Source: Frankia casuarinae (GTDB lineage: Bacteria; Actinomycetota; Actinomycetes; Frankiales; Frankiaceae). Taken from it: a stretch of DNA of 64,000 nucleotides. The notes beneath the pieces were generated by a model. That model saw nothing but the letters and a program-made list of their open reading frames with translations, had not been told where the DNA came from and did no database searches. Positions 3,825 to 62,794 of the stretch are shown here, one piece after another. A program made the translations under genes and the position numbers. The stretch covers positions 4,898,001 through 4,962,000 of the forward strand of contig NC_007777.1 of the NCBI RefSeq assembly GCF_000013345.1. The letters run 5' to 3'. The stretch's first letter is position 1; every line of letters starts with the position of its first letter.

Positions 3825-3830
3825 ACCCCC

Positions 3831-4481: not shown

Positions 4482-4997
4482 CGCTAATGTTCTGTACGGT
4501 TTCAAGGCCGCCCCTTCGGGGCGGCAACCCCAGTTGGCCAGCCAGAACGAGGCAGGGGCGCCGCACGCGCCGCGCCGAACAGGACCCCGTCCGCCCCGCC
4601 GCGCGCCCGGGGCGGGGCCCCGCCTCCCTCCGGTCGGCACCCCACCCCGGGCGCGTCGGACCGGCCGCCCGTTCGGCGCGTCGGAGCGTCGTTGCGTTCC
4701 TGTGCTGTGCCATGCGCCTTGAGAGGGACAGGCGAGATGCGTGTCGGGATGTGACGGGGCTCTGCCCCGAACCCCGGCCCTTTCTCCGGAGGAGGGAGAC
4801 CGCCGGCGGTGCCGGAGGGCAGCGGCGCGGCACGTCCGCTGGTTCCCCCGCCGGACGGACACCACAGGCAACCCCAGAACCCTCCGACCGCGCAAGGGCA
4901 CACGCCTTCCGGTGGGGTCGAGCGCCGTCGGTGCCCTTGCACGGCCGAAGGAACCTGGGGTAGGGCTACGCCTGCCCGCCCGACGGAGGACCAGCTC
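4482..4997 (+). ncRNA. structured non-coding element, copy 1
   Basis: One of three copies in the window (others at 36294-37066 and, on the minus strand, 60964-61509). Order of parts: a short head encoding an ANVLYGFKAAP-like peptide; a GC hairpin 4507-4514/4518-4525; a block around 4615-4643 nearly identical in all copies; tandem octamers 4649-4697; a variable spacer; a small hairpin 4755-4760/4764-4769; then a multibranch 3' domain. That domain is closed by 4838-4843/4990-4995 (GCTGGT/ACCAGC, where the other copies have GCTGAT/ATCAGC). Inside it are 4871-4877/4955-4961 and an apical helix 4893-4901/4931-4939. Several pairs change on both sides between copies, which supports a folded RNA or single-stranded DNA. 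No open frame is conserved across it. Confidence 0.7.
4649..4697 (+). repeat. tandem degenerate octamer array in copy 1
   Basis: Six 8-bp units close to CGGNNCGT lie end to end, with one extra T after the third: GGGCGCGT, CGGACCGG, CCGCCCGT, CGGCGCGT, CGGAGCGT, CGTTGCGT. The same array occurs at the same place in the other two copies. Confidence 0.75.
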
Positions 4998-5146
4998 AAG
5001 CCCCCGGCATGTCGAGGGTCGACGACCACCCAACCGGAGCGCCGCAAGGCCGACGAGCGGCCCTGTGCCCGTCGGATCGCCTGCCCCCACGGGTGTATGG
5101 TCCTGAGACCGGCCGATAGACACCGGAACGATCACGCTTCCTATCC

Positions 5147-5182
5147 TTCCGTTTCGTCTCGATTAGGATGGATGAAACGGAA
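5147..5182 (+). other. inverted repeat in a gene-poor stretch
   Basis: TTCCGTTTC at 5147-5155 is exactly complementary to 5174-5182. It is the only clear structure in the roughly 330-bp gene-free stretch (5011-5342) between structured element copy 1 and the convergent small genes. It could act as a bidirectional terminator or an operator; there is no T-run to decide. Confidence 0.4.
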
Positions 5183-5342
5183 CGATACGTTATGTGTCCG
5201 GTGGGGTTCGTGTCCGTGGCCGCCGCCGAGCGCAGCCGTTCCGGTGCTCTTGGCCGCCGAGTCAGCCCCGCCGCCCAGTGGGAGCAGGCACGCCGCACAG
5301 CGCAGCCCTCAAGAACGCCGAAGTGCTCTCAGAGCGCCGCAG

Positions 5343-5812: not shown

Positions 5813-5844
5813 GGGTCACCCCTGTTCACCCAGGTTGTGATCAA

Positions 5845-5878
5845 GGTTCCGGTGGGTGGTGCAACACCCGCCGGAACC
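5845..5878. promoter_or_regulatory. large inverted repeat between divergent genes
   Basis: GGTTCCGGTGGGTG at 5845-5858 pairs with CACCCGCCGGAACC at 5865-5878 (one mismatch, six-base loop). It sits between the divergent starts at 5812 and 5937, so an operator or a recombination accessory site is more likely than a terminator. Confidence 0.5.
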
Positions 5879-5890
5879 GCCAACATCACC

Positions 5891-5917
5891 AACTATAGGG
5901 CATGGCGTCCCATAGTT
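5891..5917. promoter_or_regulatory. operator-like palindrome upstream of the excisionase-like gene
   Basis: AACTATAGGG at 5891-5900 is mirrored by CCCATAGTT with one extra base. The AT-rich arms lie 20-45 bp before the GTG start at 5937, a common position for autoregulation or for excisionase binding. Confidence 0.45.
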
Positions 5918-5936
5918 CCGAAGAACAGGTAGGTAC

Positions 5937-6161
5937 GTGGCGGAAGACCCGTTGATCGGTTACCGCGAGATGGCGGAACGGGCCGGCATTAGACCGGGCA
6001 CGCTGCGTAACTATCGCGCCAAAGGACTACTTCCTGAGCCAGACGACATCTCGGTACCCGACCGACCCAGGTGGAAGACGTCCACCTTCGATGCATGGAT
6101 GGCCAGCCGCCCCGGAAGGGGTGCGCGTACGGACCTCCGGCCGCCGGACGCTGCCGACTAA
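5937..6161 (+). CDS. excisionase-like helix-turn-helix protein
   Basis: 74 residues from a GTG. The sequence GYREMAERAGIRPGTLRNYRAKGLLPEPD is a winged-helix/MerR-like DNA-binding head of the kind found in AlpA- and Xis-type excisionases of actinomycete integrative elements, followed by a basic tail. Such proteins bend DNA at an att site and favour excision. It lies about 80 bp from the att-like end at 6243-6275, which fits this role. No integrase is adjacent; the nearest recombinase gene (28107) is truncated and far away. Confidence 0.65.
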   Translation: MAEDPLIGYREMAERAGIRPGTLRNYRAKGLLPEPDDISVPDRPRWKTSTFDAWMASRPGRGARTDLRPPDAAD

Positions 6162-6242
6162 TCGATCATCCCGCGAAGCGGCGAGCGGCACGGCCACGTC
6201 GGTAGAGCTGGACTACTTGCGGTAGCAAGCAACCGAGTGTGG

Positions 6243-6275
6243 GCAGGTCAAGCGTTGCTGCGACTACTTGCGTAC
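6243..6275 (-). other. att-like end of integrative element (left)
   Basis: Read on the minus strand this begins GTACGCAAGTAGT and continues to AGCAACGC and CTGACCTGC-like sequence. A matching sequence of about 37 bp occurs at 59688-59724 on the plus strand. There it cuts an FMN reductase gene in mid-codon context, as an integration junction would. A second partial copy of the ACTACTTGCG motif lies at about 6211-6222. Inferred to be the end of a site-specific element. Confidence 0.5.
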
Positions 6276-6371
6276 CTGATTCCGTGTGTTGGAAGTGACG
6301 GACATCACGGTGTAATTTCGGTTCCTAGACGACCCGCGCCGCTTCTGCCTCGTCCACCGCCGCGCAAAAAG

Positions 6372-6396
6372 TGAAGTTCGCCAACCTGTTGCGTGC
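6372..6396 (+). other. shared truncation-junction motif, site 1
   Basis: The 26-bp sequence from TGAAGTTCGCCA to CTGTTGCGTGCA recurs with one change at 37087-37112. At both places the sequence to its right is the broken part of a gene: here an IS6 transposase without its first third, there a flavin reductase without its C-terminus. It is therefore probably the terminus of a mobile element. Confidence 0.5.
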
Positions 6397-6973
6397 AGCG
6401 CTTCACGCCCCTGCTCGTCGACGCGGCGAGGCCGTGCCGGCACCTGCCCGGGGACAGGTGGTTCGTCGACGAGACGTATGTCAAGGTCGCCGGCCGGTGG
6501 ACGTACCTGTACAGGGCGGTTGACCAGCACGGGCAGGTCATCGACGTCCTCGCCAGCGCACGACGCGACCAGGCTGCGGCACGCCGGTTCTTCACCGCGG
6601 CGCTGTCTCACGGCCGCCGGCCGGTCGAGGTCACCACCGACAAGGCCGCCGTTTACCCGCGGATCCTCGACGAGCTGGTACCCGAGGCCTGTCACGTGGA
6701 TGCCGCGCGGGAGAACAACCGGATCGAATCCGATCACAGCCGGTTGAAAGCCAGGCTCCGCCCGATGCGCGGACTGAAACGGCTGCGCTCTGTCCAGACG
6801 ATCAGCGCAGGGCATGCCTTCGTCCAGAACATCCGCCGCGGCCACTACGAACTCGGGATCGACACCGACTCGCACGCACGGCTGACAGCCGCGTTCACCG
6901 AGCTCACCCTCGCGATCTGATCACCCGTTCGGCAGGGTCAACCATGCCCTGCCTTCCCCCAATGCAACAGACC
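6394..6973 (+). pseudogene. IS6-family element, 5'-truncated
   Basis: The reading frame begins at QRFTPLLVDAARPCRH, which is about residue 65 of the full-length copies in this window. It runs to the normal C-terminus at 6920, and all three DDE residues remain (FVDETYVK, TTDKAAVYP, NNRIESDH). The right terminal repeat is present and ends at 6973 (ATGCAACAGACC). The left end and the helix-turn-helix region are gone, cut at the junction motif 6372-6396. It is closest to the copy at 51177-51998. Not expected to transpose. Confidence 0.85.
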
Positions 6974-10453: not shown

Positions 10454-11724
10454 GCTGCCCGTCCTCCGGGCTGACGAAGCACCATTGCGCTCTGAAACCC
10501 GCCGAACCCGCTGCCGATCGTCAGCACCGTGTCGAGGGTGGCCTCCCGGGCCACGCGCGGCACGTAGTCTAGGTCGCATTGGGGGTCCGGCAGCCGTAGG
10601 TTCGCGGTCGGGGGGATGACGCTGTACCGCAAGGCGAGAGCGCAGGCGGCCACCTCGATGGACCCGATCGCGCCCAGGGAATGGCCCACCATCGACTTGA
10701 TCGAGCTGATCGGCACCCGACGCGCGTGCTCACCGAGGCTGGCCTTGACCGCCGCTGTCTCGTGTAGATCGTTCTGTCTGGTACCCGAGCCGTGCGCGTT
10801 GACGTAGTCCACGTCCGACGGATCGAGCCGGGACTGGGCGAGCGCGGTGCGGATCGCCTCGGCCATCTCCCTGCCGTCCGGCTTCAGACCGGTCATGTGG
10901 AAGGCGTTCAACCGGGTGGCGTACCCGGTGACCTCAGCGTAGATCTCGGCGTTGCGACGCCGGGCGTGCTCGTACTCCTCGAGCACGAACATGGCGCAGC
11001 CCTCGGCGAGGACAAAGCCGTTGCGCGATCGGTCGAACGGGCGCGAGGCCGTCGCCGGTTCGTCGTTGTACGACGTGGTGGCTTTGATGGCGTCGAAGCA
11101 CGCCAGCACGATGGGTGAGATCGGAGTGTCTGTCGCGCCCGCTGCCATCACATCCACTACGCCGTCCTCGATGAGGTGCAGCGCGTGGCCGATCGCGTCC
11201 AATCCGGAGGTGCACCCGTCGGAGACCATGGTGACCGGGCCCTCCGCGCCGACGGTCCAGGCCACCTCGGCCGCCATCACGCTGGGCACCATGTGATCGA
11301 ACATGTGCGGCGTCAGGTGCCGGGTGTCCATCTCGCGGGTTCGGCCGCTGTCGAACAGCACGAGGTACTCGGCTTCCAGAGAGGTAGCCGCCGCGACAGC
11401 GCTGCCGAGGCTCACCCCGATCCGGTGGGGTTCCACCCGGTCCAGCTCCAGACCGCTGTCCTCGACCGCGTCGCGGGTGCAGACCACCGCGAACTGGGCC
11501 GCCCGGTCCATCCGGCGGATCTGCCGTGGGGTCAGCCCTTCGGCCTGGGCATCGAAGTCGACCTCACCGGCCACCTGGCTGCGGAACGGCCCCGCATCGA
11601 AGAAGGAAATCCGCCGGGTCGCGGTCCGGCCGGCCGTCAGAAGGTTCCAGAAGTTCTTGGCTCCTCCGCCACCGGGTGCGCGTACTCCGATCCCGGTGAT
11701 CACCACGCGCCGGTTCGGTTTCAT
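10450..11724 (-). CDS. ketosynthase alpha subunit
   Basis: 424 residues from the ATG at 11724, chosen for its strong ribosome site (GGGGAAAGGAATTC before ATG) over a GTG at 11751. The catalytic set is intact: Cys171 in SDGCTSGLDA, His311 in VNAHGSGT, Lys343 and His348 in SIKSMVGHSLG. With CLF and ACP it forms the minimal PKS that makes the poly-beta-ketone chain. It is the only KSa in the window; the second polyketide set has lost its own. Confidence 0.95.
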   Translation of the reverse strand: MKPNRRVVITGIGVRAPGGGGAKNFWNLLTAGRTATRRISFFDAGPFRSQVAGEVDFDAQAEGLTPRQIRRMDRAAQFAVVCTRDAVEDSGLELDRVEPHRIGVSLGSAVAAATSLEAEYLVLFDSGRTREMDTRHLTPHMFDHMVPSVMAAEVAWTVGAEGPVTMVSDGCTSGLDAIGHALHLIEDGVVDVMAAGATDTPISPIVLACFDAIKATTSYNDEPATASRPFDRSRNGFVLAEGCAMFVLEEYEHARRRNAEIYAEVTGYATRLNAFHMTGLKPDGREMAEAIRTALAQSRLDPSDVDYVNAHGSGTRQNDLHETAAVKASLGEHARRVPISSIKSMVGHSLGAIGSIEVAACALALRYSVIPPTANLRLPDPQCDLDYVPRVAREATLDTVLTIGSGFGGFQSAMVLRQPGGRAA

Positions 11725-14418: not shown

Positions 14419-15333
14419 ATGCGGGCCGCGGCATTCTACACCTTCGGTGGTCCGGAGGTGCTACAGGTGGTCGAGGTTGCCACACCCGAAGCTGGGCCGG
14501 GAGAGGTTCGGGTCCGAGTCGAGGCGGCGGGCGTGCAAGCGTACGACTCGTCGGTACGGTCCGGCTGGACACCGCCGGGGCAGACCCTGCGGTTCCCGCA
14601 GATAGTCGGCAACGACTTCGCCGGTGTCGTCGACGAGATCGGCACCGGCGTCACAGACTTCCGGATCGGCGACGAGGTGCTCGGCTGGGCCATGCTCGCC
14701 AGCTGCGCCGAGTACGTCGTCGTCCCTCCAGAGCAGGTCGTCTCCAAGCCGTCCGGGATGACCTGGCCGCAGGCGGGCACCCTGTCGGCGTCGGCGCAGA
14801 CCGCACACACCGCGCTGGACGAACTGAAGGTCAGCGTCGGCGACACTCTGCTGATCCACGGCGCCTCCGGCGGCGTCGGAACGGTCGCGGTGCAGCTGGC
14901 CCTGGCCGCGGGCGCGACGGTGATCGGAACGGCCGGCCCGGCGAACCAGGACTACCTGCGCTCGCTGGGGGCCACACCGACCACCTACGGCGACGGACTG
15001 GTCGACCGCGTGCGAGCCCTGGCACCCGGTGGTGTCGACGTCGCCCTGGACGCCGCGGGCGGCGCGGCCCTGGATGCCTGCCTCGAGGTGGTCGCCGACC
15101 GGAGCCGGATCGGCACCCTGGTGGATTTCGCCCGGGCGGACGAGCTCGGCGTACGATTCCTGCGCAGCCAGCGCTCGGGTCAGCGGCTACGGGCGATCAC
15201 CGACCTGTACCGCGCCGGGCGACTGACGCTGACCGTGTCGGAGGTCTTCCCACTGGACCGGATCGCCGACGCGCACCGTCGGATCGACACCGGCCATGCC
15301 CGCGGCAAGACCGCCGTCCTGCTCCGGGGGTGA
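14419..15333 (+). CDS. quinone oxidoreductase-like medium-chain reductase (putative enoyl reductase)
   Basis: 304 residues from the ATG at 14419, with ribosome site GGAGAGGAGATCC; the upstream in-frame extension is not needed. The zinc-free MDR/zeta-crystallin pattern is clear: a nucleotide motif HGASGGVGTVAVQLA near residue 150 and the conserved GNDFAGVV. In benzoisochromanequinone pathways an enzyme of this family (ActVI-ORF2) reduces an enol/ene in the pyran ring; this is the likely analogue, by inference. Its stop overlaps the GTG of the next gene. Confidence 0.78.
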   Translation: MRAAAFYTFGGPEVLQVVEVATPEAGPGEVRVRVEAAGVQAYDSSVRSGWTPPGQTLRFPQIVGNDFAGVVDEIGTGVTDFRIGDEVLGWAMLASCAEYVVVPPEQVVSKPSGMTWPQAGTLSASAQTAHTALDELKVSVGDTLLIHGASGGVGTVAVQLALAAGATVIGTAGPANQDYLRSLGATPTTYGDGLVDRVRALAPGGVDVALDAAGGAALDACLEVVADRSRIGTLVDFARADELGVRFLRSQRSGQRLRAITDLYRAGRLTLTVSEVFPLDRIADAHRRIDTGHARGKTAVLLRG

Positions 15334-26559: not shown

Positions 26560-27813
26560 CTATGCCGCTGGTGTGATGGTGACGGTGTAGCCGAGTTTCT
26601 CCAGTTCGCCGACGAGGTTCTTCCGGCGGCGTTCAGGGTCCCGGCGTCGGCGGGCATGCCAGTCTCCGCCGAGGTCCTGGTAGACGGTCTTGTTCGCGAT
26701 GATGTGCCAGTAGGCGATGAGAATGTCGTGGCGGGTCGCGCCGATCGCTTTCAGGACACCGCGGCGGCCACGGACCTGGGCGTGGTGGGACGCCAGGTAG
26801 GTGTCCTTGCTCCGGGCGGCGGCGTGCGCGGCCTCGGTCAACGCGGTACGTAACCACTTGTTACCGTGTCGGGTCCGCCCGGACAGGCGTTTCCCTCCCG
26901 AGGTGTTGTTCCCCGGACAGATACCCGCCCAGGACGCGAGATGGCCGGCGGTGGGGAACCGGCTCATGTCCAGGCCGACCTCGGCGAGCAGCACGGTCGC
27001 GGTGACCTCACCGACCCCGGTGATCGTGCGGATCCGGTCGACCGTCTCCCGAAAAGGGGCGATCATCACCTCGATCCGGTGGTCGAGCTCGTCGATCTGC
27101 TCGTCACACAGGTCGATCCGGGCCAGGAGCTGCGCGGCGAGGAACCCGTGATGCCCGGAGCGGAACGTTCCCGCGCGTGCCTCCTGCAACTGTGGGATCT
27201 TGCTGCGGAGTCGGCCACGGGCCTGATCAGCGAGATATTCCAGGGACTGCTCTCCCTCGATCATCTTCTCCAGGATCGCACGGCCCGAGACCCCGAGTAG
27301 CTTGGAGGCGACGCTGGTGAGTTTCACGCCGGCGTCCTGCATCAGTTTCTCCAGCCGCTGGATCTCCCGGGTCTTCTCCTCGACCACGATCCGCCGGGCC
27401 CGGGTCAGGTCACGCAGGTCCCGCTGGGGTTTCGGCGGCACGAACGAGGCGCGTACCAGGCCGTGCGCGACGAGGTCCGAGATCCACGCCGCGTCCGCGA
27501 CGTCTGTTTTTCGGCCTGGTACGTTGCGGACGTGGGTGGCGTTGAGGAGCCAGCACTCGAACCGGTCTTCCAGCAGGTGGAACACCGGCTTCCAGTAGAC
27601 GCCTGTCGATTCCATCCCGACGATCGTCACCCGGCACTCGGTGAGCCAGTCCGCGAGTAGTCCGAGCGAGCCCCCGGTCGTGGTGAACGTCCGGACCTCG
27701 GTGACGGCTTTACCCGAACCGGTTTGGATGCGCACCGCCGCGGCGACCGTGTCCCGGTGCACGTCAAGGCCCGCGCACCGTGGGAATAACACCTGCATCT
27801 GCCAGCCCTCCAT
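26560..27813 (-). CDS. IS110-family transposase (DEDD recombinase)
   Basis: 417 residues from the ATG at 27813; longer in-frame starts read into the non-coding end of the IS. The N-terminal RuvC-like domain shows GLDVHRDTVAAAV (D), GMESTGVYWKP (E) and GRKTDVADAAWISDL (D). The C-terminal Tnp domain has ITGVGEVTATVLLAE and the serine-bearing GNNTSGGKRLSG. IS110 elements are guided by a bridge RNA made from their own non-coding end. It lies immediately before a recombinase gene that has lost its N-terminus. Confidence 0.92.
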   Translation of the reverse strand: MEGWQMQVLFPRCAGLDVHRDTVAAAVRIQTGSGKAVTEVRTFTTTGGSLGLLADWLTECRVTIVGMESTGVYWKPVFHLLEDRFECWLLNATHVRNVPGRKTDVADAAWISDLVAHGLVRASFVPPKPQRDLRDLTRARRIVVEEKTREIQRLEKLMQDAGVKLTSVASKLLGVSGRAILEKMIEGEQSLEYLADQARGRLRSKIPQLQEARAGTFRSGHHGFLAAQLLARIDLCDEQIDELDHRIEVMIAPFRETVDRIRTITGVGEVTATVLLAEVGLDMSRFPTAGHLASWAGICPGNNTSGGKRLSGRTRHGNKWLRTALTEAAHAAARSKDTYLASHHAQVRGRRGVLKAIGATRHDILIAYWHIIANKTVYQDLGGDWHARRRRDPERRRKNLVGELEKLGYTVTITPAA

Positions 27814-28097
27814 GGTCAGCAACCTGTAGGTGCTGTCCGGAGAGGCCCTGACCACAGGAAACTGAGGAACGCGCTCGTAGCAGCAGGAAAGAGTACCCCA
27901 GGACCTCCACCGCCATACTCTTGGACGGGCTCTGAGCACCAGAGAACGCCGACGTCGATCCGGACAGCATCGGAGATGCTGCACGGGACTCGGCGATACC
28001 GGGCCGAAACGGCCCACCGGCCAACATCAGGACCACAGGCGTCCCGCGGCCGGACTCAAATTCTCATACGAAAGGGTGGCGGCCACGCCGCCCTGGC
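27814..28097 (-). ncRNA. non-coding end of IS110, candidate bridge-RNA region
   Basis: About 280 bp upstream of the IS110 transposase with no gene, ending where the truncated recombinase begins. In IS110-group elements the bridge RNA is transcribed from this position. I cannot fold it with confidence or fix its ends; the call rests on position and family knowledge. Confidence 0.45.
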
Positions 28098-28106: not shown

Positions 28107-29405
28107 GTGATCCGCCCGGACTACGCGGAACTGTTGGCGGACCTGCGGTCAGGGTTTCTGGACGGGGCGATCGTGTGGGACCTGGACCGTCTCACCCGGG
28201 ACCTCCGCGACCTGGAAGACGCCATCGAAGTCGTCGAGCTGTACGGCCGCCCGATCGTCGGGCCCGGTGTCGACCTGACCACCGAGTACGGGAAGGCGAA
28301 CGCCCGCGCGCAGGCGGTCGCGGCGAACAAGGCCAGCGCGGACACCTCCCGCCGGGTCCGCCGGTCCCACAAGCAGCGCGCCGAACGCGGGGTGCCGGTC
28401 GGGGGCAGCCGTCCGTTCGGCTGGAAGGACGACAAGCGGACGTTGGATCTCACCGAGGCCGCGATCCTGCGGGAAGGGGCCCGCCGGATCCTCGCCGGGG
28501 TGCCGGTCGTCGATCTGGTGAACGAGTGGAACGCCGCCGGTGTCCGGGGGACCCGGGGGAAGAAGTGGACCAAGAGCAGTGTGTTGAAGGTCTACCGCAA
28601 CCCGCGGATCTGCGGCCTCCGCAGCCGGGGTGTGGAGGAACCGAACATCAACGGCCAGGTCGCGAAGTACATGCAGGTCGTCACCCGCAAGGAACGCACC
28701 CCGGACGGGCGGACGATCGAGGTGCCGGTGAAGGGCCAGTGGAAAGCGATCATCGGTGTGCGCCGGTGGGACCAGGTGATCGCGAAGATCGGGGACCGGA
28801 CCTATGCCCAGCAGGGGCATAACTCTCGCCGCTACCTGCTCAGCGGTGTGGTGGCGTGTGGCCGGTGTGGCCGGTCAATGTTCGGGTCACCGCCGTACCG
28901 GGAACGTAAGCACGCGATCTACCGGTGTCCCGCTCCGACACAGGGCGGATGCGGGAAAGTCTCCCGCCACGGACCCCACACCGATGATCATATTCTGGCG
29001 GCGTTGTTCCACAAGATCGAGCTGGAGACCGCGAGCGCTGTCGTCGACGTCGCCCCCTGGACGGGAGAAGCCGCGTTGGCCGAGGTCCAGGAGAGCATCA
29101 CCGAGACACGCGCCGCGTGGACGTCGGTGCCCCGGCGGATTTCCCCGAAGGACTACTTCCCGACCATGGAAGACCTCCGAGCCCAGGAAGAAATCCTGCT
29201 GAGGGAACGCAACGATCATCTGGTGGCCACGGCGAACGCGCACGCCCGCCCCGCCGACGTCCGCGCCGAGTGGGACGGCTACTCGTTGGCCCGCCAGCGC
29301 GCGATCATCAAAGAGCATCTGATTGCCGTGGTCGTTCACCCTGCCGGCCGGGGCCGCCGGTTCGACCCCGACCTGTTGGACCCGGTCTGGCGGGAGGAGA
29401 CCTAA
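28107..29405 (+). pseudogene. large serine recombinase, N-terminus lost at an IS110 junction
   Basis: 432 residues remain. The visible start, RPDYAELLADLRSGFLDGAIVWDLDRLTRD, is about 60 residues into a normal catalytic domain, so the nucleophilic serine is missing. The recombinase domain (RAERGVPVGGSRPFGW) and the zinc ribbon (CGRCGRSMFG and a second CP/CG pair) are intact, followed by a coiled-coil part. It would have been the integrase of the adjacent RepSA-type integrative plasmid. The GTG at 28107 is only the first start codon in the surviving frame. Its stop overlaps the stop of the convergent small gene. Confidence 0.85.
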
Positions 29406-29776
29406 CCACCCCGATCGTCGGCCAGGACCAGCCCGAGCAGCGCCGCGACCCGGCGCCGTTTCTCCCGCGACCACACCGGAGCCGCCAACGCCTGACGTCG
29501 CCCCCATTCCTCCGCCGTAGCGGAGAACACCCGCCGAGACCGCGCCGCACCCGGCACCGGTACCGGTCGGGTGCCAGCCCGCCCACCCGCCCGCACCGTG
29601 GTCGGTTTCCCCGGCAGACCCCCGGCAGCGACCGGGGTGGGAACAGTCGAGGAGCTTACGGAACCTGCGGTGCCCATCTGCTGGCCGGCCGTGACCGGAG
29701 CCGCCTTGCGGGTGCCCGTGACAGGGTCGTGGAGATCGTCGAACAGCGATGGCTGCACAGCAGCGTCGGTGCTCAC
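29402..29776 (-). CDS. hypothetical protein downstream of Rep
   Basis: 124 residues; a low-complexity, proline/valine/glycine-rich middle and a basic C-terminal segment (WSREKRRRVAALLGLVL). Its start overlaps the Rep stop by 4 bp (ATGA), so it is translated with Rep. In actinomycete integrative elements this place between rep and int usually holds xis or a small unknown; no HTH is visible, so I do not call it an excisionase. Confidence 0.6.
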   Translation of the reverse strand: MSTDAAVQPSLFDDLHDPVTGTRKAAPVTAGQQMGTAGSVSSSTVPTPVAAGGLPGKPTTVRAGGRAGTRPVPVPGAARSRRVFSATAEEWGRRQALAAPVWSREKRRRVAALLGLVLADDRGG

Positions 29777-31218
29777 CGTTCGGCCCGCCAGGGGCCCACC
29801 GGGCTCCCAGCCGCCCGCGACGCTGGCAGATCAGGCGGACCCGAGCCCCCACCATGGCCCCCGAGGTGCAGCCCCCGGCCGGCATAGGACCACGTACCCA
29901 GGACGATCGTGTTTGGGTCGCCGTCAGCTCGGCCGAACGCATCCACCGGTGCCCGGCCTGCCATGGCCGCGCCGATCGTGCGGGACCAGACCCGCCGTAC
30001 CGTCCGCAGCGCGGTGAACGTCGTCGAGTACGCCCGACTTTTCGTCAACCAGTGGCCGCCGAACCCAAAGGTGTGGGCCCAGCGGATCAGCCGGGGGACG
30101 TCGCCGGAGTCCCGGCCCAGCGTCGCATCCAACGCCGTCGTGAATACCGGGTCGTGGCCGAGGCGCCAGCAGGTCTCCACCAGCCGGCGCACATGCGGGG
30201 GCAGCGTCAGCCGGCCGAGTGCGGCCAGCGACCGCACCGGATGATCCAACTCACCACCCGCCGCCGCGGACTTGGTGATGTACTTCGCCAGGTAGTTACT
30301 GACCCGGGACACATCCGCCGGCCCCTCCAACGCGATCCGGCGGATATCGACCTGTGCGCCCCAGCGCACCGCCCAGCCGTCATCCGCAACGGCGGTGGTG
30401 TCAAGGGTGAGCGCGTCCGGATCCGGAGCCGGTACTGCCACCACGCTCAGGACCCCGCGCAGCGCGTCTGCGACCAGCTCACCGGCCGCCCAGGCCGGAG
30501 GAGCCGAGCCCGGCCCGTCGGGACCGTCCACCCGGATCACTACGTGCAGGTGGACGACGCCCCGCGCCTGCATCTCCGCGACTTTCACGAACGACAGCCG
30601 CGCCGCGCGGCGCAGCCCTGCCACGGTCAGCCCGGCTGCCGCCGCCACCGCCGATTCCGTGCCGTCGCGGGTGGCCTTCCACAACCGGGGGACGAGCGCG
30701 TTCCAGACCACCGACCGGCCGTAGGCGTAACAGTCCGCGCACAACGGCGACCCGAGCCGGGAATCCGCCTCATGGTGCCGCTCATGACAGCCCGCCGGTT
30801 TCCCATGCGGACACAGACCGCGCCGGGGATGACACGCCCGCACCGGACCCGTCTTCCCGCCCCGCTGGCGCCGTGAGTGCACCGGCCCGAAGCTCGGCGC
30901 GGTCAACGTCACGAACCACGCCGGATGATCCGACACCGATGCCGGCACACCCTTGCCACCCGCCAGCCCGGCCAGGACCAGCCGCCGCGCGTCCCGCTTG
31001 TACACCGCCGAACAGGCAGGACACGCCGACTCCCGCCGGTTCCCGCACCGCACATGCAGCACCCCGCCCGGCTCACCGGCACTGGTAAACGCCCGCCGGA
31101 CCTCACCAGTACCGACATCCACATGATCAATATGGCCGGACAGGCGGATCGGGCGGGAACACCCACCCGCGACCGGCCGGTTTTCGGGCAGGCTCACGCC
31201 CACATCCACGGAAACCAC
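29773..31218 (-). CDS. RepSA-type replication initiator of an integrative plasmid
   Basis: 481 residues. Cysteine-rich N-terminal part (CGNRRESACPACSAVYKRDA), FVTLTAPSFGPVH (a Rep motif of rolling-circle initiators) and ARGVVHLHVVIRVDGPDG (HxH metal motif) are diagnostic of the RepSA family of pSAM2-like integrative elements. The expected role is rolling-circle replication of the excised circle. The gene looks intact, but the partner recombinase is broken and no transfer gene (FtsK/TraB-like) is nearby, so the element is a relic. Confidence 0.88.
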   Translation of the reverse strand: MVSVDVGVSLPENRPVAGGCSRPIRLSGHIDHVDVGTGEVRRAFTSAGEPGGVLHVRCGNRRESACPACSAVYKRDARRLVLAGLAGGKGVPASVSDHPAWFVTLTAPSFGPVHSRRQRGGKTGPVRACHPRRGLCPHGKPAGCHERHHEADSRLGSPLCADCYAYGRSVVWNALVPRLWKATRDGTESAVAAAAGLTVAGLRRAARLSFVKVAEMQARGVVHLHVVIRVDGPDGPGSAPPAWAAGELVADALRGVLSVVAVPAPDPDALTLDTTAVADDGWAVRWGAQVDIRRIALEGPADVSRVSNYLAKYITKSAAAGGELDHPVRSLAALGRLTLPPHVRRLVETCWRLGHDPVFTTALDATLGRDSGDVPRLIRWAHTFGFGGHWLTKSRAYSTTFTALRTVRRVWSRTIGAAMAGRAPVDAFGRADGDPNTIVLGTWSYAGRGLHLGGHGGGSGPPDLPASRAAGSPVGPWRAER

Positions 31219-34997: not shown

Positions 34998-36248
34998 CTA
35001 TACCCCCAACAGACCCACCTTCCGGGCCAGCTCGCTTGCCTGCTCCCGACGCCGTCCATCCCGCGCGTCCAGCTCTTCCAGAATGATCCGCCGCGCGTGG
35101 CCGTTGTACCGGATCGTCTCCGGCGCCGAGTCGTAGGCGTGATCGAGGAGACGAAGCGCTTCGTCGTACTTCCTGTCGATCTGGTAAGCCCGTGCTTGCT
35201 CGATCCAATGCCGCGCCTGCCGCGGATGGGACGGGATCACCGCCGCGCGCCACCGTTCCGCCTGTCGTACGCCCTCACCACTCTGTCGCAGCTCGACCGC
35301 AACCGTCACGGCGTGCGCGTGCATGACCGTCTGCGAAAACGACGTGACAGGATGAAAGTAGTCGTCCGGCAGTCGCCGCGCGACGGCGTCCGCCGCGTCC
35401 CAGTACCTCCAAGCGTTCCCGATCTCGCCACGCCGCGCCGCCGTGTAGCCGCTCTCGAACTGCAACGCTCCCCACAGCGCCGCCACGTCGTCAGTGGCGT
35501 CATCGCTGGACAGGCTGTCCCGCAGTAGCGCCGTCGCCTGACTGGCCACGACGTCCGCTGCATCCCAGTCCCCGGCCTCACGATGCGCCTGTGTCATCAG
35601 CCAGGCTGCCACCCCGACCGCATGCAGGTCGTCCGAGTCCAGCGCGGTCGAGACACCACGTTCCGCCACCCGCCAGACTAGATCCTGTGCGGGCTGGTAG
35701 GACACGAAAAACTGCGTCAGCGCGTACACCTCCGCCAACACGGCCAGCGCCGCACGGCGCTGCGGACCGTCCGCCTCCGCGCGGGCAGTGCGTTGCGCGT
35801 CATCCAGAAGCCCGGGCAACAGCCCCCCGAGAACCTCCCGATGATTCGGCGCCGCATGCCTCGCCCTCCAGGCCCAGGTCACCCGCCCCCGTAGATCTGC
35901 AACCGAGGGCGCAGGCTGATCGGCGGCTGAGACCGGCAACCTGTTGACAGCAGCCCGCACAGCAGTGAGCCGATCATGCCCTGGGCCGGAGAACAACACC
36001 ACCGGGATCGACTGACCACCCGTCAGTTCCGCAAGGTCACGCACCCTGAGTGCTTCCGCCAACCGAAGCAACATCGACAACTTCGGAGCAGCCAACCGAC
36101 CCGTCTCCACCGCCTTCACCCACGACGCCGAGCGACCGACCAGCCCGCCCAGAACCTCCCGCGTCATCCCCCGCCGCGTGCGCAGAACCTTCAGCCGTCG
36201 ACCGACGGACAGCGCGTCATCCGAACCCGTCCCGCCAACGATCGCCAT
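34998..36248 (-). CDS. XRE-family regulator with TPR-like C-terminus
   Basis: 416 residues. HTH at about residues 15-70 (LKVLRTRRGMTREVLGGLVG, SASWVKAVETGR), then alpha-helical repeats (EVYALTQFFVSYQPAQDLVW, AWLMTQAHREAGDWDAADVV). It heads the operon with the nucleotidyltransferase and kinase. The start at 36248 is 46 bp from the beginning of structured element copy 2, which is on the opposite strand, so the two may share a control region. Other XRE/TPR genes lie near copy 1 and copy 3 as well. Confidence 0.82.
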   Translation of the reverse strand: MAIVGGTGSDDALSVGRRLKVLRTRRGMTREVLGGLVGRSASWVKAVETGRLAAPKLSMLLRLAEALRVRDLAELTGGQSIPVVLFSGPGHDRLTAVRAAVNRLPVSAADQPAPSVADLRGRVTWAWRARHAAPNHREVLGGLLPGLLDDAQRTARAEADGPQRRAALAVLAEVYALTQFFVSYQPAQDLVWRVAERGVSTALDSDDLHAVGVAAWLMTQAHREAGDWDAADVVASQATALLRDSLSSDDATDDVAALWGALQFESGYTAARRGEIGNAWRYWDAADAVARRLPDDYFHPVTSFSQTVMHAHAVTVAVELRQSGEGVRQAERWRAAVIPSHPRQARHWIEQARAYQIDRKYDEALRLLDHAYDSAPETIRYNGHARRIILEELDARDGRRREQASELARKVGLLGV

Positions 36249-36468
36249 ACCAACTCCCTTCGCACGCAGCGAAAAACCCTTTGATGATGATCCTCGCTAA
36301 TTATCTCTACGGTTTCAAGGCCGCCCCTCCGGGGCGGCAACCCCCACATCCTGACCAAGCCGGACGTCGAGGCCGAGGGCGCCGCACACGCCACGCCGAA
36401 CAGGACCCCGGCCGGCCCGGCCGCGCACCGGGATGGGGCCCCGCCTCCCTCCGGTCGGCACCCCACCC

Positions 36469-36517
36469 GGGCGCGTCGGACCGGCCGCCCGTTCGTCGCG
36501 TCGGAGCGTCGCGGGTC
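36469..36517 (+). repeat. tandem degenerate octamer array in copy 2
   Basis: GGGCGCGT, CGGACCGG, CCGCCCGT, T, CGTCGCGT, CGGAGCGT, CGCGGGTC. Same phase and same inserted T as copy 1; two units differ. Confidence 0.75.
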
Positions 36518-36544
36518 CATTACCCCCGCGAGCGTGGGGACGAA

Positions 36545-36790
36545 AATACGCAACAGAGCGTGCGAATTTCAGGCTTTTTTTGAAGGGCGCCAGCGGCCGG
36601 CAGATCCACAGCCGCCGCACCAGTAAACGCAGCAGCCAGCACAAGACAGATCGCTTGAAAGATCGTCGGAGGCGCATCGTAGCCCGCGCATCCGGCCATA
36701 AGCGTGGCCAGAACGGCTAGAAAGCACCTTGCGACCGCACTTCGCGGAACGCGATCCCAAGGGCGCCGATACACCGGCTCATACTACAAG
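36545..36790. other. insert within the variable spacer of copy 2
   Basis: About 245 bp with lower GC than its surroundings and no match in copies 1 and 3. Read on the minus strand, part of it encodes a hydrophobic frame (CFLAVLATLMAGCAGY and ICLVLAAAFTGAAAVDL) that could be a piece of a small membrane protein; start and ribosome site are weak. Its left edge carries an inverted match to the junction motif at 37087-37112. Confidence 0.4.
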
Positions 36791-37086
36791 GCGCGAGCAT
36801 CTGTCAGGCAAGAGCAACGGGGCGCCGCCCCGGACCCCGGCCCTTCCTCTGGAGGAGGGGGAGCCGCCGCCGGTCACCAGGAGCCGGGCGCGCGGGACCG
36901 CTGATCTCCTCCGCCGGGCGGACACCCGAGGGGTTACCCCAGAACCTCCCGACCGTGCAAGAGCGCACGGCACCCAGCAGGCACGGCCGGAACGTCGGCG
37001 CTCTTGCACAGCCAGGAGAACCCGGGGTAAGGCGCAGCCTGCCCGCCCGACGGAGGAGATCAGCTCAGCCAGAAGTCCGTGAAAAA

Positions 37087-37112
37087 TGAAGTTCGCCAGC
37101 CTGTTGCGTGCA
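37087..37112 (+). other. shared truncation-junction motif, site 2
   Basis: Same 26-bp sequence as 6372-6396 with one change, directly after copy 2 and at the exact point where the flavin reductase frame breaks. An imperfect inverted match lies at 36548-36571 (ACGCAACAG, then GCGAATTTCA). It may be the terminal repeat of a mobile element that no longer has a transposase. Confidence 0.5.
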
Positions 37113-37481
37113 CCGGAACGATCCGTCCTCGAACTTGTCGCCGGTACTGCGCGCGAACCGCCTCGCCAGTTCGACGTGCCCTGGCCGGAGCATGTTGACG
37201 GTGAACCGGTCGCCGCCGCCGAACGCCGGATGGCAGCGTGCCGCCCGGGCCAGGCACACCGACACCAGCGGCGGCTCCAGGGACACCGCGCAGAACGAGC
37301 TCGCGGTGAACCCGTGCGGCGTGCGGGTTTCGCTCCGGGTGGTGACGATGACGACTCCGCTGGGGAAATGGGCCAGCGCCTCCCGGAGCTGGTCGGGGTC
37401 GGGGCCGGCGCCCCGAGCCACCGTCCCTGTCGCCGTGCGGGTGAGCGCTGGCATGCCTGTGCCGCCACCCGGGACGGTCAC
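37113..37481 (-). pseudogene. flavin reductase (ActVB/HpaC-like), C-terminus lost
   Basis: About 123 residues of a 165-175-residue family. FPSGVVIVTT, GFTASSFCAVSLEPPLVSVCL and FTVNMLRPG are standard flavin-binding segments. The frame then enters the junction motif and ends after about 15 unrelated codons. The GTG start overlaps the stop of the dehydratase (GTGA). An intact protein would supply FMNH2 to the two acyl-CoA-dehydrogenase-fold monooxygenases in this window. Confidence 0.85.
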
Positions 37482-38806
37482 GCCGCCTCCTCCAGGTCCG
37501 GGCGCCGCGTGATGCAGGTCAGCAGGGAACGCGCGCCGACGTTGACATGGTTGCCGTACGGCACGAAGCTCGTGAGCTGCGACACCGTCATCCAGACGAA
37601 GTCCGGCGGTACCTCGAGCGGGAAGTCCTCGTCGGCCTCGACGAGCTGGTACCGGTTCTCGGCGTGGTAGAAGCGTCCGCCCTCCTCCGAGTGCACCACG
37701 TCGACGAGGATCCGCTCGGGTGGCGCGGCGAGCACGAAGTCGAGGAACGGCGGCTGCTGGTCGCGACCGAGGCCGCGGTAGTTTTCTGGTGAGCAGTTGA
37801 CGGTGGGCGACATCTCCACGACGTCGCCCGTTCCGGGCTCAGTCCGGGCGTGCACCAGCAGGTGCCGGACGCCCTTGATCCACCTGGTCACGAAGGCGAT
37901 GACGCCCTGGCAGGTCGGCTGGAACATCGGCTGCGACCAGCTCATGACCTCACGGTTGCTGGCGCGGACGCTGACGCCGATGACGTTGAAGAACAGCTCC
38001 AGCTCGTGGGAGATCCGATCACTCGACCGGATCCAGTCCTTGACCTCCGACAGCCGGATGACCTGACGGTCGAGCCGATACCGCGCCTTGACCTCCGTGA
38101 ACCAGCTCAGCAGCTCGTGGGTGGTGTGCAACGCCTCGCCCCCACCGGTGTCGCCGGTGAGGAATGACATGCCGGACAGCACCGTCCGGGAGTCCATGTT
38201 GACGATGTTCTCCGCGTGCACCAGCTCCCGCAGCTGGGGTACGCTCAGCCAGCAGAAGTCGTCACGGACCTCGACATCGTCGTCCACCGCGACGATCATG
38301 TTCCGGTTTCGCTTGTTGAGGAACCACGAGCCCTGCTCGGACTGCAGGGAGTCGAAGACGACCCGTCCGGCCCGCGGCGCGAGGAAGTGCTCCAGGTAGG
38401 GCACCGAGCTTCCGCCGTGCACCCGGGTGTAATTGCTGCGGGTGGCCTGGACGGTGGGTGAGATCTGCAGCCCGTTGATGTTGCCCGGCTCCATCTTCGC
38501 CTGCATCAGGCAGTGCGGCACCCCGGCGAAGCTCTTGACCAGGATTCCGAGTATGCCGATCTCTGGCTGCAGGATGATCGGCTGGCTCCAGGTCGGCACC
38601 TCGCGGTGGTCCGTGGCGACCTCTATCCCCTCGATCGAGAAGAACTTCCCCGAACGATGCGAGAGATTCCCTGAATCACCGTCGAAGCCCCATCCGTCAA
38701 GCTGGTCGAGCGCGACGACGGATATCTGGTAGGTGTTCGCTTCAGCTCTCTGCTTGAACCATTCGTGGAAATCTGACAGCTGCTGGAACACGGGTCTTTC
38801 TCCCAT
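37478..38806 (-). CDS. NDP-hexose 2,3-dehydratase
   Basis: 442 residues from the ATG at 38806. The protein is an internal duplication of two roughly 200-residue halves, each with a WSQP motif (EVPTWSQPIIL, EVMSWSQPMF) and an MEPG/TEPG plus SPTV segment, as in TylX3/OleV-type enzymes. It removes the 2-hydroxyl of NDP-4-keto-6-deoxyglucose on the way to 2,6-dideoxysugars. It shares an operon with the truncated flavin reductase and is divergent from the sugar N-methyltransferase. Confidence 0.9.
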   Translation of the reverse strand: MGERPVFQQLSDFHEWFKQRAEANTYQISVVALDQLDGWGFDGDSGNLSHRSGKFFSIEGIEVATDHREVPTWSQPIILQPEIGILGILVKSFAGVPHCLMQAKMEPGNINGLQISPTVQATRSNYTRVHGGSSVPYLEHFLAPRAGRVVFDSLQSEQGSWFLNKRNRNMIVAVDDDVEVRDDFCWLSVPQLRELVHAENIVNMDSRTVLSGMSFLTGDTGGGEALHTTHELLSWFTEVKARYRLDRQVIRLSEVKDWIRSSDRISHELELFFNVIGVSVRASNREVMSWSQPMFQPTCQGVIAFVTRWIKGVRHLLVHARTEPGTGDVVEMSPTVNCSPENYRGLGRDQQPPFLDFVLAAPPERILVDVVHSEEGGRFYHAENRYQLVEADEDFPLEVPPDFVWMTVSQLTSFVPYGNHVNVGARSLLTCITRRPDLEEAA

Positions 38807-39109
38807 CGTCGACTTGATGCCTACGGATGGCAGGGCACATGTCGGGCGCTCGTCAGTCGAGGCCCAGTCTGGCCGGAGCGGCTTGAAGAGCCGCGGAGAC
38901 CCGCTCAAGAACCACTAAACCCGGTGCGTCGGGTGGCTGCGTGCGCCGGTGCGCGGCGGTGGGTGATGCCGCCGCGGGGCCGTCCCGGTGGTTCCGGCGT
39001 GCTGCCCAATCAAACGTCAAGCGTTCCTCCAGCGGTGTTTCGCAGAATACGGCAGAGCGGGCCGCGCCAGGAGCGGCCGGCGCCTGTGAATCCAGCGGAT
39101 GGGGTCGCC
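38807..39109. promoter_or_regulatory. divergent region between sugar genes
   Basis: 303 bp between the start of the 2,3-dehydratase and the chosen GTG of the N-methyltransferase. It should hold promoters for both. An open frame runs through it on the plus strand in phase with the methyltransferase, but it lacks similarity to the family and a good start. No palindrome noted. Confidence 0.4.
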
Positions 39110-60180: not shown

Positions 60181-60489
60181 ATGGCCATGGTGCCATATGG
60201 GCCGGCCGGTGCCGGTAGCCGGTCGGTGACGAGTGTGGATCTCCAGGTGCATCCGGCGGAGTCGGCGGATGTGCATCTTCCGATGCCGGGACCTCGGTTC
60301 TCGGTGATGCGTCCGACCCTGCTGCTTCCGGCCGGGGTGCGGGTGAGCGTGGCCAGTGACATGCCGTACGACGTGGCGGCGCGCTGGTGGGACTCGCTGA
60401 CGGTCGCGGGGTCGGCGGCGAGCCAGTGGTACACCGCCCAGGTCAACGGCTGGCCCGGTGGCAAGGATCGTCGGGACGGGGGCCGGTGA
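60181..60489 (+). CDS. hypothetical protein of integrative element
   Basis: 102 residues from the ATG at 60181 (ribosome site CAGGAG). Mostly beta-strand-like (SVTSVDLQVHPAESADVHL) with WWDSL near the end. No family recognised. The last base of its stop is the first base of the next start, so the two are coupled. It faces structured element copy 3. Confidence 0.6.
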   Translation: MAMVPYGPAGAGSRSVTSVDLQVHPAESADVHLPMPGPRFSVMRPTLLLPAGVRVSVASDMPYDVAARWWDSLTVAGSAASQWYTAQVNGWPGGKDRRDGGR

Positions 60490-60881
60490 TGGCGGGCTCG
60501 CTGCGGGCGTTGCACTTCATCCGCCAGGATGCCGGCAGCTACGGCGACCTGGCAGACCAGCGGGCGGTGTTCGCGGTGGCATGTACGGCGCGCGGCTGGC
60601 AGGCCGGAGGTGCGGTCCGTCAGATCGGGTCGGGTCCGCACGCCTGGTCGGCGGTCGTCCGGCTCGTCGGGTCGGGGGCGTACGGCGTGGTCGTGGTCGA
60701 CACGGTGGAACGGCTCGCGGCCACCGAAACCGGGCGGATGGCGGTCCTGGGCCTGCTGCGCCGGACGGGGGTGCGGCTGCTGGTCGCACGCGAACCCCTC
60801 GACACCGGCGATGCGATCGGCCGTGCCCTCGCCGATTCCCTGCTCGACCCGGAGGAACAGCGGACACCGCTCGCGGCATGA
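60489..60881 (+). CDS. resolvase-like domain without catalytic serine
   Basis: 130 residues. The pattern LHFIRQDA, DQRAVFAVACTARGW, YGVVVVDTVERLAATETGR and LLVAREPLDTGDAIGRAL follows the N-terminal catalytic domain of serine recombinases in order and spacing. The position of the nucleophilic serine (as in YxRVS) is filled by Q/D, and no DNA-binding domain follows. So it is probably a catalytically dead relative with a structural or regulatory role. It may be conserved in actinomycete integrative elements. Ends 83 bp from structured element copy 3. Confidence 0.6.
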   Translation: MAGSLRALHFIRQDAGSYGDLADQRAVFAVACTARGWQAGGAVRQIGSGPHAWSAVVRLVGSGAYGVVVVDTVERLAATETGRMAVLGLLRRTGVRLLVAREPLDTGDAIGRALADSLLDPEEQRTPLAA

Positions 60882-60963
60882 CCTGACCCACGGCTGATCA
60901 AACCCGGGTTCGGGGGCTTCCACGCCACCCGACCCGGGTTTTGATCTTTCACAGAGTTCGGGC

Positions 60964-61509
60964 TGAGCTGATCTCCTCCGTCGGTCGGGCGGCGTAGCCC
61001 TACCCCGGGTTCTCCTGGCCGGGCAAGGGCGCCGACGGCCCGTACCATGCTGGGTGCGGTGCGTCCCTTGCGCGGGTGGGAGGTTCCGGGGTAGCCCTTC
61101 AGGGGTCCGGGCGGCGGAGGCGATCAGCGGACGTACGCGGCCTCTCCCCCTCCTCCAGAGTGAGGGCCGGGGTTTGGGGCGGAGCCCCAACAACCAGCAG
61201 CGGCACCGTCCTCGCGGACGTCGCGCGGCTCCTGGAGCACCGGCGTGGACCAGCGGCATCAGCATCGCCGATCGTCACGGTCGTCACGGACCCTCTGGCG
61301 GGGGGCCTGACGCTCCGACACGCCGACGGGCCGACGCGCCCACGGGGCGACGCTCCGGCCGGGGTGCCGACCGGAGGGAGGCGGGGCCCCGGCCGGGTGC
61401 GGCGATCCCGTAGGCGCGGCGCGCACGGGGCGACGCGCGGCGCGTGCGGCAGGCCCCCCGCGGCGGCCGAAGGCCGCCCTTGAGGCGGTACAGAACATTG
61501 GCGACGATC
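60964..61509 (-). ncRNA. structured non-coding element, copy 3
   Basis: Same order of parts as copies 1 and 2, read on the minus strand. The head encodes ANVLYRLK; the 5' hairpin at 61479-61462 has GGCGGCC/GGCCGCC instead of CCGCCCC/GGGGCGG; a 30-bp block is identical to copies 1 and 2; the octamers are at 61357-61310. The small hairpin is flanked by T-A pairs where the others have C-G. In the 3' domain are 61128-61115/60980-60967, 61092-61086/61008-61002 (a G-C pair where copy 1 has A-T) and an apical helix 61073-61061/61032-61023. It follows the XRE gene on the same strand by about 75 bp and could be its 3' extension. Confidence 0.7.
61310..61357 (-). repeat. tandem degenerate octamer array in copy 3
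   Basis: Six uninterrupted octamers on the minus strand: CGGAGCGT, CGCCCCGT, GGGCGCGT, CGGCCCGT, CGGCGTGT, CGGAGCGT. Every unit ends in GT and most begin CGG. Confidence 0.8.
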
Positions 61510-61582: not shown

Positions 61583-62794
61583 CTACGGCTTGATGCCCAC
61601 AAATGTAGCCAGGTCGGCTAGACCGGTCTTTCGGGCTCTTCGGACGCTCGTAGCGTCTAGTAGGTCGCGTATTAGTCTGCTGGCTAGGCGCTGCTCCCGT
61701 AGCCATTCCGGGGTGAGAGTGTAGACATCTTGAACTGTCTGAATGGCACTCGCGTAGTCTCTTGTGGCCGTTTGTGCCTCGGCCACAGCGAGAAGGTGAC
61801 GTGTCCAGTTGCTCAGTGGCATGTTCTCAGTCCGACGGACCCTCCGGGCCAGAGTCAATGCACGGGGCGCATCGCCTTGCGTCATGGCATTTTCGACCTC
61901 GATTGCGTCGACTTGACTCGGTCCGAACGCCGCCCAGTACTTAGCGTAGTCCATTTTTCCGTCGGCTACACGCGCGGCTGAGCTACGGGCATACGAAAGT
62001 AGGTCTTTCGCTGTTTCCGGACGGTTGTTCCGAGCTGCGGCGGCAGAGGCGCCGGTCAGCAGTCTCCCCCATACTGCAAGGTGTTCGGGGGTTGCTGACA
62101 TGATGCTTGGCTCGATCTCGGTGGCCATGTCGACGGCCACCTTTTCGGCATCGTCGAATCGGCCTTGGCGGATGAATGCCCACCGGTAGTACACCACTCC
62201 GCTTGCACGGAGAATCGGGTCTCCGGCTTGCTCCGCCGCTTCCATGCTCCGGCGTATGGCCTCGCAAGCCAAGTCCTCCCCGCTAAGCTGGATGAGAATC
62301 GAGGCAGCCATAATGTAGGCGTGCGCCAGCAGGCGATATATACTCTTCTGGTCCTCCTCCTGGTGTATGCCCGTGGCGGCAGTGATGTCCTCGATCAGTT
62401 CTGGAGCGGTCCGAACGGCCTGCGGATACCGCGCATAATGGTAGTCCTGGGTCAGCGCCACCAGACGTTGCCGCAACGGTTGGAGCGATAGGGCCGGTTC
62501 GTCGGTTTGCCCGCTGGAAGGTCCAGGGAGCAACAGTTTCCGAAGCGGTATGAAGGCCTCATTATCGCTCACCGTCTCCTCCTGCTCCACCTCAAAGAAC
62601 GTAGCGGTAGGAACGTCCAAGGCCCTAGCAAGGCTGTGCAACGTAGAGATGCGTATGCCGTCACGCTGGCCCTGCTCCAGCTTCGTAACCAGGTCGGTAG
62701 ACACGCCTGCACGCTCGGCAAGCTCGGTCTGTGTCATCGAACGGCGTACACGTACTTGAGCGACCCGGTCGCCCAGAGCCCGGATCTCCGTCAC
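61583..62794 (-). CDS. XRE-family regulator with TPR-like C-terminus
   Basis: 403 residues. HTH at about residues 8-65: RVRRSMTQTELAERAGVSTD, then LVTKLEQGQRDG. The C-terminal part is helical with repeats (AHAYIMAASILIQLSGEDLA; WAFIRQGRFDDAEKVAVDMA). A perfect 17-bp palindrome sits 16 bp before its start and overlaps the untranslated leader, which suggests autoregulation. Structured element copy 3 lies just downstream. Codon use is a little less GC-rich than in the neighbours, in keeping with transfer. Confidence 0.85.
   Translation of the reverse strand: MTEIRALGDRVAQVRVRRSMTQTELAERAGVSTDLVTKLEQGQRDGIRISTLHSLARALDVPTATFFEVEQEETVSDNEAFIPLRKLLLPGPSSGQTDEPALSLQPLRQRLVALTQDYHYARYPQAVRTAPELIEDITAATGIHQEEDQKSIYRLLAHAYIMAASILIQLSGEDLACEAIRRSMEAAEQAGDPILRASGVVYYRWAFIRQGRFDDAEKVAVDMATEIEPSIMSATPEHLAVWGRLLTGASAAAARNNRPETAKDLLSYARSSAARVADGKMDYAKYWAAFGPSQVDAIEVENAMTQGDAPRALTLARRVRRTENMPLSNWTRHLLAVAEAQTATRDYASAIQTVQDVYTLTPEWLREQRLASRLIRDLLDATSVRRARKTGLADLATFVGIKP

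Follow-up and report, generated by a model that had tools for sequence, protein, structure and literature searches.

The three non-coding elements of the window (the whole 64-kb stretch of Frankia casuarinae DNA that was analysed) probably constitute a composite rolling-circle replication (RCR) origin of RepSA-type actinomycete integrative and conjugative elements (AICEs) in Frankiaceae. Each element is built of two parts, M1 and M2. The sequence data lend good support to M1 as the putative double-strand origin (dso), holding the nick site, and M2 is interpreted as a single-strand origin (sso). The origin reading is supported by covariation, linkage to RepSA, polarity and a motif with strand bias; nicking, priming and a continued replication of the elements are presumed. 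Part of the start-site signature is recognisable in many other actinobacteria.

Layout of the elements

Alignment of the three elements revealed a common 5' part (M1, about 200 nt) and a common 3' part (M2, about 250 nt) separated by a variable middle, and both reading and alignment bore out the places that a preliminary description of this DNA had given for the three copies. The paired changes it had pointed out are real, except that the inner stem of copy 2 opposes ACCCCAG to CCGGGGT, with one A.C mismatch. Its count of three copies holds for the window, but the genome itself (5,433,628 bases) carries at least seven loci with one or both parts, M1 and/or M2 having been found at 2.295, 2.465, 4.021, 4.902, 4.934, 4.959 and 5.095 Mb. 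The parts of the three copies are as follows.

4486..4525, - strand: copy 1, nick module (GNA-loop hairpin at 4507-4525, then the CTTGA-N4-GTA motif from 4506 down to 4486)
4495..4691, + strand: copy 1, whole M1 (predicted dso region, with the nick hairpin, a second hairpin and the 8-bp GTCGG repeats)
4754..5002, + strand: copy 1, M2 (leader hairpin GGGGC/GCCCC and four-way-junction fold; model match at 4834-5002; predicted sso)
36299..36338, - strand: copy 2, nick module (GNA-loop hairpin at 36320-36338; CTTGA motif from 36319 down to 36299)
36308..36511, + strand: copy 2, whole M1 (predicted dso region)
36816..37071, + strand: copy 2, M2 (model match at 36896-37071; predicted sso)
61462..61499, + strand: copy 3, nick module (GNA-loop hairpin at 61462-61478; CTTGA motif at 61479-61499)
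61324..61490, - strand: copy 3, whole M1 (predicted dso region)
60960..61200, - strand: copy 3, M2 (model match at 60960-61132; predicted sso)

No tRNA was detected by a scan of the window, and an Rfam scan of it at gathering thresholds gave no match to the element; the preliminary description had recognised no known RNA class. The sole Rfam match was a group II intron domain (RF00029, 26264-26339) adjoining a long - strand ORF (26560-28017). Relatives of this ORF (cluster c27) were found near other element copies, and it is perhaps the reverse transcriptase of the group II intron.

Secondary structure of M2

A model, R1, was derived from 25 M2s (alignment A2), the three of the window among them, and scored copies 1, 2 and 3 at 176.5, 159.1 and 143.1 bits, respectively. 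In A2, 94.9% of 999 cells were paired and two-sided changes occurred at 13 of 40 pairs. Covariation was strong: the covariation score of the 25 M2s was 0.182 vs 0.084 in shuffled alignments, and none of 500 shuffles, nor any slid version of the structure, was equally high. One of five measures, further pair types, did not rise above shuffles (22 vs 22.4). With slid structures, 34-45% of the cells paired, a control that favours the structure drawn from the same alignment. A larger alignment, A3, was reduced from 92 rows to 49 by keeping the best strand per place; several of the rows kept are partial.

When the - strand of copy 2 was folded as DNA, z was -9.0 for M2 and -3.7 for M1, one of 200 shuffles folding as well as the latter. 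Covariation and the - strand DNA fold of M2 both indicate a conserved intrastrand secondary structure, as expected of an sso, and the data support a real, selected secondary structure, a covarying four-way junction.

Association with RepSA

The mobile element of copy 2 encodes its own replication initiator.

29773..31218, - strand: RepSA of the mobile element with copy 2 (two-tyrosine motif NYLAKY; match to Pfam PF20199 at E 1.2e-139)

Copies 1 and 3 have their own RepSA just outside the window, at G000:4895935-4897362 and 4963672-4965075, respectively. A search of six complete genomes with one RepSA query returned 19 rows, which were reduced to 16 loci (two loci were represented by a pair of rows, and a G030 fragment of 52 residues was discarded). 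At all 16 loci, M1 and/or M2 were found about 4-14 kb off, on the 5' side of rep and in one polarity, i.e. with a cognate initiator on the same element. Conversely, nine of the 25 element loci in these genomes (R1 and R2 matches, weaker BLAST matches and one match at E 0.006 being left out) had no RepSA of this type, which counts against the origin reading. L139 and L144 are among these nine, and the divergent RepSA of L139 is 29% identical to that of the window; the own copy at 2.295 Mb, with a truncated M2, is also among them. The remaining loci are taken as remnants, as they would have to be. The distance of 4-14 kb between origin and rep likewise speaks against an origin, the dso of RCR plasmids being usually close to rep. 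A further reservation is that neither the cells nor the loci counted here are phylogenetically independent.

M2 was found without a detected nick module in L139, where it lies beside the divergent RepSA, and in L144, a similar locus; a host-read sso could behave in this way. L139 and L144 (G028 and G031) belong to two species, with the element near 21 kb in both, closely alike flanks and the same chromosomal place; judged from its number, this element is probably AICE FeuI0027.

The putative nick signature of M1

A first hairpin of M1, H1, was found by script in 27 of 36 M1s, and its loop was TTC, TCC or TGC (TNC on the +, GNA on the - strand) in 25 of these 27, on stems of differing sequence. 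The second hairpin was matched in 29 M1s and read GACCGGAGGGA or GAGCGAAGCGA on the - strand in 24 of them. GNA triloops are very stable in DNA. The M1 hairpin loops point to the - strand, i.e. the rep-sense one, and on that strand CTTGA stands immediately 3' of the M1 hairpin. The CTTGA at the predicted M1 nick resembles the nick core CTTG/A that is found in the pC194 and phiX174 groups.

Species genomes were scanned with a RepSA alignment, and 80 of 91 relatives were kept, 25 from Frankiaceae and 55 from elsewhere (one of the latter labelled as a Chloroflexi MAG). The loci include Streptomyces, Lentzea, Saccharopolyspora, Janibacter, Jiangella, Nakamurella and Brachybacterium. Among the 55 non-Frankiaceae loci, a perfect hairpin (stem of at least 7, loop of 3-5) adjoining CTTGA was found 22 times on the rep strand vs once on the other, and 1-2 times per strand in a Markov control; looser settings gave 28 vs 7 (stem of at least 6) and 36 vs 12 (stem of at least 8 with one mismatch). 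A consensus, CTTGANNNNGTANAGAAANTT, was drawn by eye from the hairpin-CTTGA sites and the Frankia M1. At up to two mismatches, this consensus, which thus stems from part of the same loci, gave 31 matches in 28 of the 55 loci, all of them on the rep strand; 12 of the 31 were new relative to the hairpin-CTTGA list, and in 27 loci the consensus was absent or undetected. At the 25 Frankiaceae loci, the same threshold gave six matches, again exclusively on the rep strand. At up to five mismatches, the contrast at the 55 loci dropped to 80 vs 43. Within the window, matches at up to four mismatches were confined to the three elements, with one mismatch each. A conserved putative nick sequence beside a hairpin on the rep-sense strand, as expected of a dso, is present in 3/3 window copies, with the 31 vs 0 contrast outside Frankiaceae.

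Position and polarity of M2

A nick module was located within 4 kb of 29 of the 49 M2s on the expected strand and of none of the 49 on the other. M2 lay upstream of it, on the expected side, in 28 of these 29 cases, giving the rep-strand order M2, then nick; two M2s of L095 share one nick module. In strand, all 29 conform to what is expected of an sso, i.e. a fixed orientation and, in most cases, a place on the displaced strand that precedes the dso. Against the origin reading, the nick motif was missing near 20 of the 49 M2s, five of these lying within 3 kb of a locus end, and an M1 match was 3' of M2 in six loci. At L053, L141, L142 and L189, a repeat-bearing stretch lies beyond M2 and the nick module is still beside M2.

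It is conceivable, albeit unlikely, that M2 is not an sso but part of the dso, or a termination or resolution site acting as a cruciform in double-stranded DNA. GNA loops occur on both strands of the small hairpins of M2, and M2 adjoins the nick module, as such a site might; however, M2 was also found without a detected nick module (L139, beside the divergent RepSA, and L144) and M1 without M2 (L092 and L093). A single-strand replication origin of integrative elements, one of the candidate roles named in the preliminary description, is the best reading of M2.

Evidence for DNA rather than RNA

The preliminary description had named a large regulatory or structural RNA among the candidate roles of the element. 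Compensatory changes in which G.U exceeds A.C are expected of a structured non-coding RNA; on the + strand, A2 displayed 11 G.U and 23 A.C cells, and the 49 copies of A3 displayed 31 and 59. The RNase P RNA of 17 Frankiaceae behaved in the reverse manner (85 G.U vs 10 A.C, or 34 vs 7 with the count limited to Watson-Crick pairs of the reference). By pair types, G.U vs A.C amounted to 6 vs 16 in A2, 18 vs 24 in A3 and 13 vs 4 in RNase P. Both sets were aligned with MAFFT, the pairs being taken from the Rfam model for RNase P and from RNAalifold for M2; 30 RNase P loci were fetched, 13 of them without the exact anchor string, and 17 were kept.

A large structured RNA transcribed from the + strand would account for the strong covariation and for a stable RNA fold, and model scores on + were far above those on -, though the model was built from +. 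The excess of A.C and the absence of an Rfam match to the element at gathering thresholds speak against it, as do the fixed position and polarity of the element relative to RepSA (16/16 RepSA loci) and the occurrence of the nick-site-like motif of M1 at RepSA loci of other families. Its parts are also separable: M1 occurred without M2 in L092 and L093, an M1 match lay 3' of M2 in six loci, and in L044 a TIR-WD40 gene (5431-6927, G004) sits between M1 and M2. This reading is very improbable, and the claim of a structured RNA on the + strand is not supported. An intron or ribozyme with a loop ORF, to which the L044 gene had given rise as a candidate, was rejected on the grounds that the parts occur alone and in changed order.

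An RNA of the - strand, for instance a primer or a regulatory RNA of the mobile element, was very improbable as well. Read on this strand, wobble pairs outnumber A.C by 23 to 11, the direction expected of an RNA, but RNase P has a far higher ratio, and a hairpin with CTTGA is common to RepSA loci at which the M1 and M2 models find nothing. Moreover, the small hairpins of M2 favour the + strand: H4 carries a GNA loop on + in 16 of 49 copies and on - in none, and H5 on + in 13 and on - in 7 of 49. The A.C and G.U counts thus point to - as the functional strand of M2 and the H4 and H5 loops to +, the loops counting against -. Covariation alone is no proof of RNA; in the present case, wobble statistics and linkage pointed to DNA.

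Repeats of M1 and association with Tra

The 8-bp direct repeats of M1 were apparent from a lag-8 autocorrelation of 0.439 vs 0.313 in mononucleotide shuffles (30 tails). They may be either a predicted initiator binding region or a clt, TraB being described as reading 8-bp repeats at clt (PMC4170104). If M1 were a clt locus, its 8-bp GTCGG repeats would be putative TraB recognition sites for transfer and the hairpins would be secondary, and the separation of the repeat part from the nick motif in L053, L141, L142 and L189 would fit such an arrangement.

The association with Tra was surveyed in six complete genomes with one query only, the FtsK-like Tra of L139 (PF01580). The 19 rows obtained, with three loci having two rows and a 33% match (G000:166653) and a 53-residue G004 fragment being dropped, corresponded to 14 loci. 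Five of these lie beside RepSA and M1 was found in 5/5; at the nine Tra loci without this RepSA type, M1 was absent from the 20-40 kb examined, although one M1 (L055) lies 25 kb from the Tra at G001:1859969, and M2 was present at two (L139 and L144). Likewise, no match to the L139-type Tra was found near 11 of the 16 RepSA loci with an element, at least two of which (L141 and L142) hold a more distant Tra. With this one query, M1 appears to follow the RepSA type and not Tra, M2 being less choosy. As a clt would explain neither the nick motif nor M2, we regard this role as quite unlikely for the element. If M1 tracks the RepSA type, this would fit a report that divided RepSA into the subfamilies SAM2 and MR2, predicted to use different dso binding regions (PMC3218068).

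Neighbouring genes

The window holds the following genes around the elements.

~272-1657, - strand: HTH gene near copy 1 (assigned by clustering only)
34998..36248, - strand: HTH (XRE-type) regulator beside copy 2 (Pfam HTH; TPR match below cut-off)
61583..62794, - strand: HTH (XRE-type) regulator just 5' of copy 3 (Pfam HTH)
28107..29405, + strand: serine recombinase, probable integrase of copy 2's element (PF00239, PF07508, PF13408)
60486..60881, + strand: small resolvase-N-like protein, convergent to copy 3 (PF00239, E 0.0026, below curated cut-off)

The recurrent order comprises an XRE/TPR-type gene just before M1 and, upstream of that gene, small oppositely directed genes; on the downstream side, small resolvase-like genes converge on the element, and in many element loci a RepSA gene lies further upstream on the opposite strand. 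The gene family of the 60486..60881 protein also recurs beside other element copies. An XRE/TPR gene had previously been noticed near every copy. The HTH part of this statement held for all three (by clustering only for copy 1), the TPR part for copy 2 alone and below cut-off. The HTH gene is indeed linked to the element, but the link is consistent with both belonging to one mobile element.

Other neighbours were more particular. A flavin reductase gene (window 37065-37481) matches positions 2-89 of a profile of 153 only and ends at the edge of copy 2, possibly the insertion site or decay edge of its element. The adjacent region (37478-38908) encodes an NDP-hexose 2,3-dehydratase (PF03559), which suggests that the elements are in or near an antibiotic gene cluster. 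The AdoHcyase-like and NUDIX genes upstream of copy 1 (window 2640-4394) are common to a copy from another genus (L096; G021:C10, 38-1093), so that this flank seems to travel with the element. In L055 (G001), a TIR-WD40 gene at 3669-5231 adjoins M1, and a protein cluster including TIR-domain proteins has members near ten element contexts; such genes are possibly defence cargo. In L101 (G028), two M1s (11139-11322 and 15012-15174) lie in opposite orientation, about 3.7 kb apart, around a gene of 759 aa.

Distribution

M2 was present in 25 of 35 Frankiaceae genomes, which represent the whole order as sampled. In a phylum sample of 396 genomes, searched with stricter filters than the family, it was found in the own genome only (0/395 others). 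At the 55 non-Frankiaceae RepSA loci, the M1 and M2 models found nothing except one weak M2 match in Nonomuraea basaltis (L214; 34.7 bits, E 5.5e-4), which is accompanied by a hairpin-CTTGA site (loop TGC) in the same order and polarity, upstream of RepSA. Comparison of copy 1 with plasmid and phage records by blastn gave no match.

Proposed mechanism and its implications

In the predicted dso, CTTGA-N4-GTA-N-AGAAA-N-TT stands on the rep-sense strand immediately 3' of a GC-rich hairpin, the loop of which is a GNA triloop in most cases. By analogy, RepSA would nick M1 on this strand at CTTG/A, between G and A, and the second hairpin together with the 8-bp direct repeats could be its binding region. 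Leading-strand synthesis would then proceed in the direction of rep, pass through it and continue around the excised circle. Most RCR plasmids carry their sso upstream of the dso, where it turns single-stranded only when leading-strand synthesis is nearly complete (PMC4595007). With M2 usually upstream of the nick, the displaced strand would similarly expose M2 last; single-stranded M2 would fold into the four-way junction, and host enzymes would presumably start the second strand there.

A paper on Frankia AICEs from 2011 stressed the complete lack of genetic tools for Frankia, which AICE parts could supply (PMC3218068); at the heart of any replicative vector is a defined origin (rep, dso and sso). 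With the motif, origins and remnants of RepSA elements can also be located in actinobacterial genomes, and the position at which RepSA cuts can be tested directly.

Comparison with known systems

The open literature on AICE and RCR origins and on Frankia non-coding elements contained, judged by title and beginning of abstract among the matches listed, no description of these sequences; the nick core itself may be in print already.

With the clt loci of Streptomyces conjugative plasmids, M1 shares the 8-bp direct repeats, but it appears to track RepSA rather than Tra. M2 resembles the sso of RCR elements such as sti of pIJ101 and sso1 of ICEBs1, which are non-coding, structured, fixed in polarity and, on the displaced strand, mostly found ahead of the dso (PMC4595007, PMC4170104). 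In contrast to these, it is a four-way junction of about 170 nt with a covarying family (49 rows), and copy 1 has no blastn match in plasmids or phages. We tentatively suggest, though with the balance somewhat against it, that M2 is the first of a new class of sso, a DNA four-way junction of about 170 nt kept by compensatory change, passed among AICEs whose initiators differ, and coupled to a nick signature of RepSA (hairpin and CTTGA-N4-GTA-N-AGAAA) that would hold from Frankia to Streptomyces, Lentzea and Brachybacterium.

The closest system is the dso of pSAM2-type (RepSA) AICEs. Binding and nicking of the pSAM2 dso by its RepSA have been demonstrated, and the nick site was reported to be pC194-like (PMC3218068). 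The Frankia origin, compared here with the published description, differs in lying 4-14 kb from rep, and its extended GTA-N-AGAAA motif and GNA hairpin may also set it apart. Common to both is the initiator, since the Frankia elements encode a member of the same RepSA family (PF20199).
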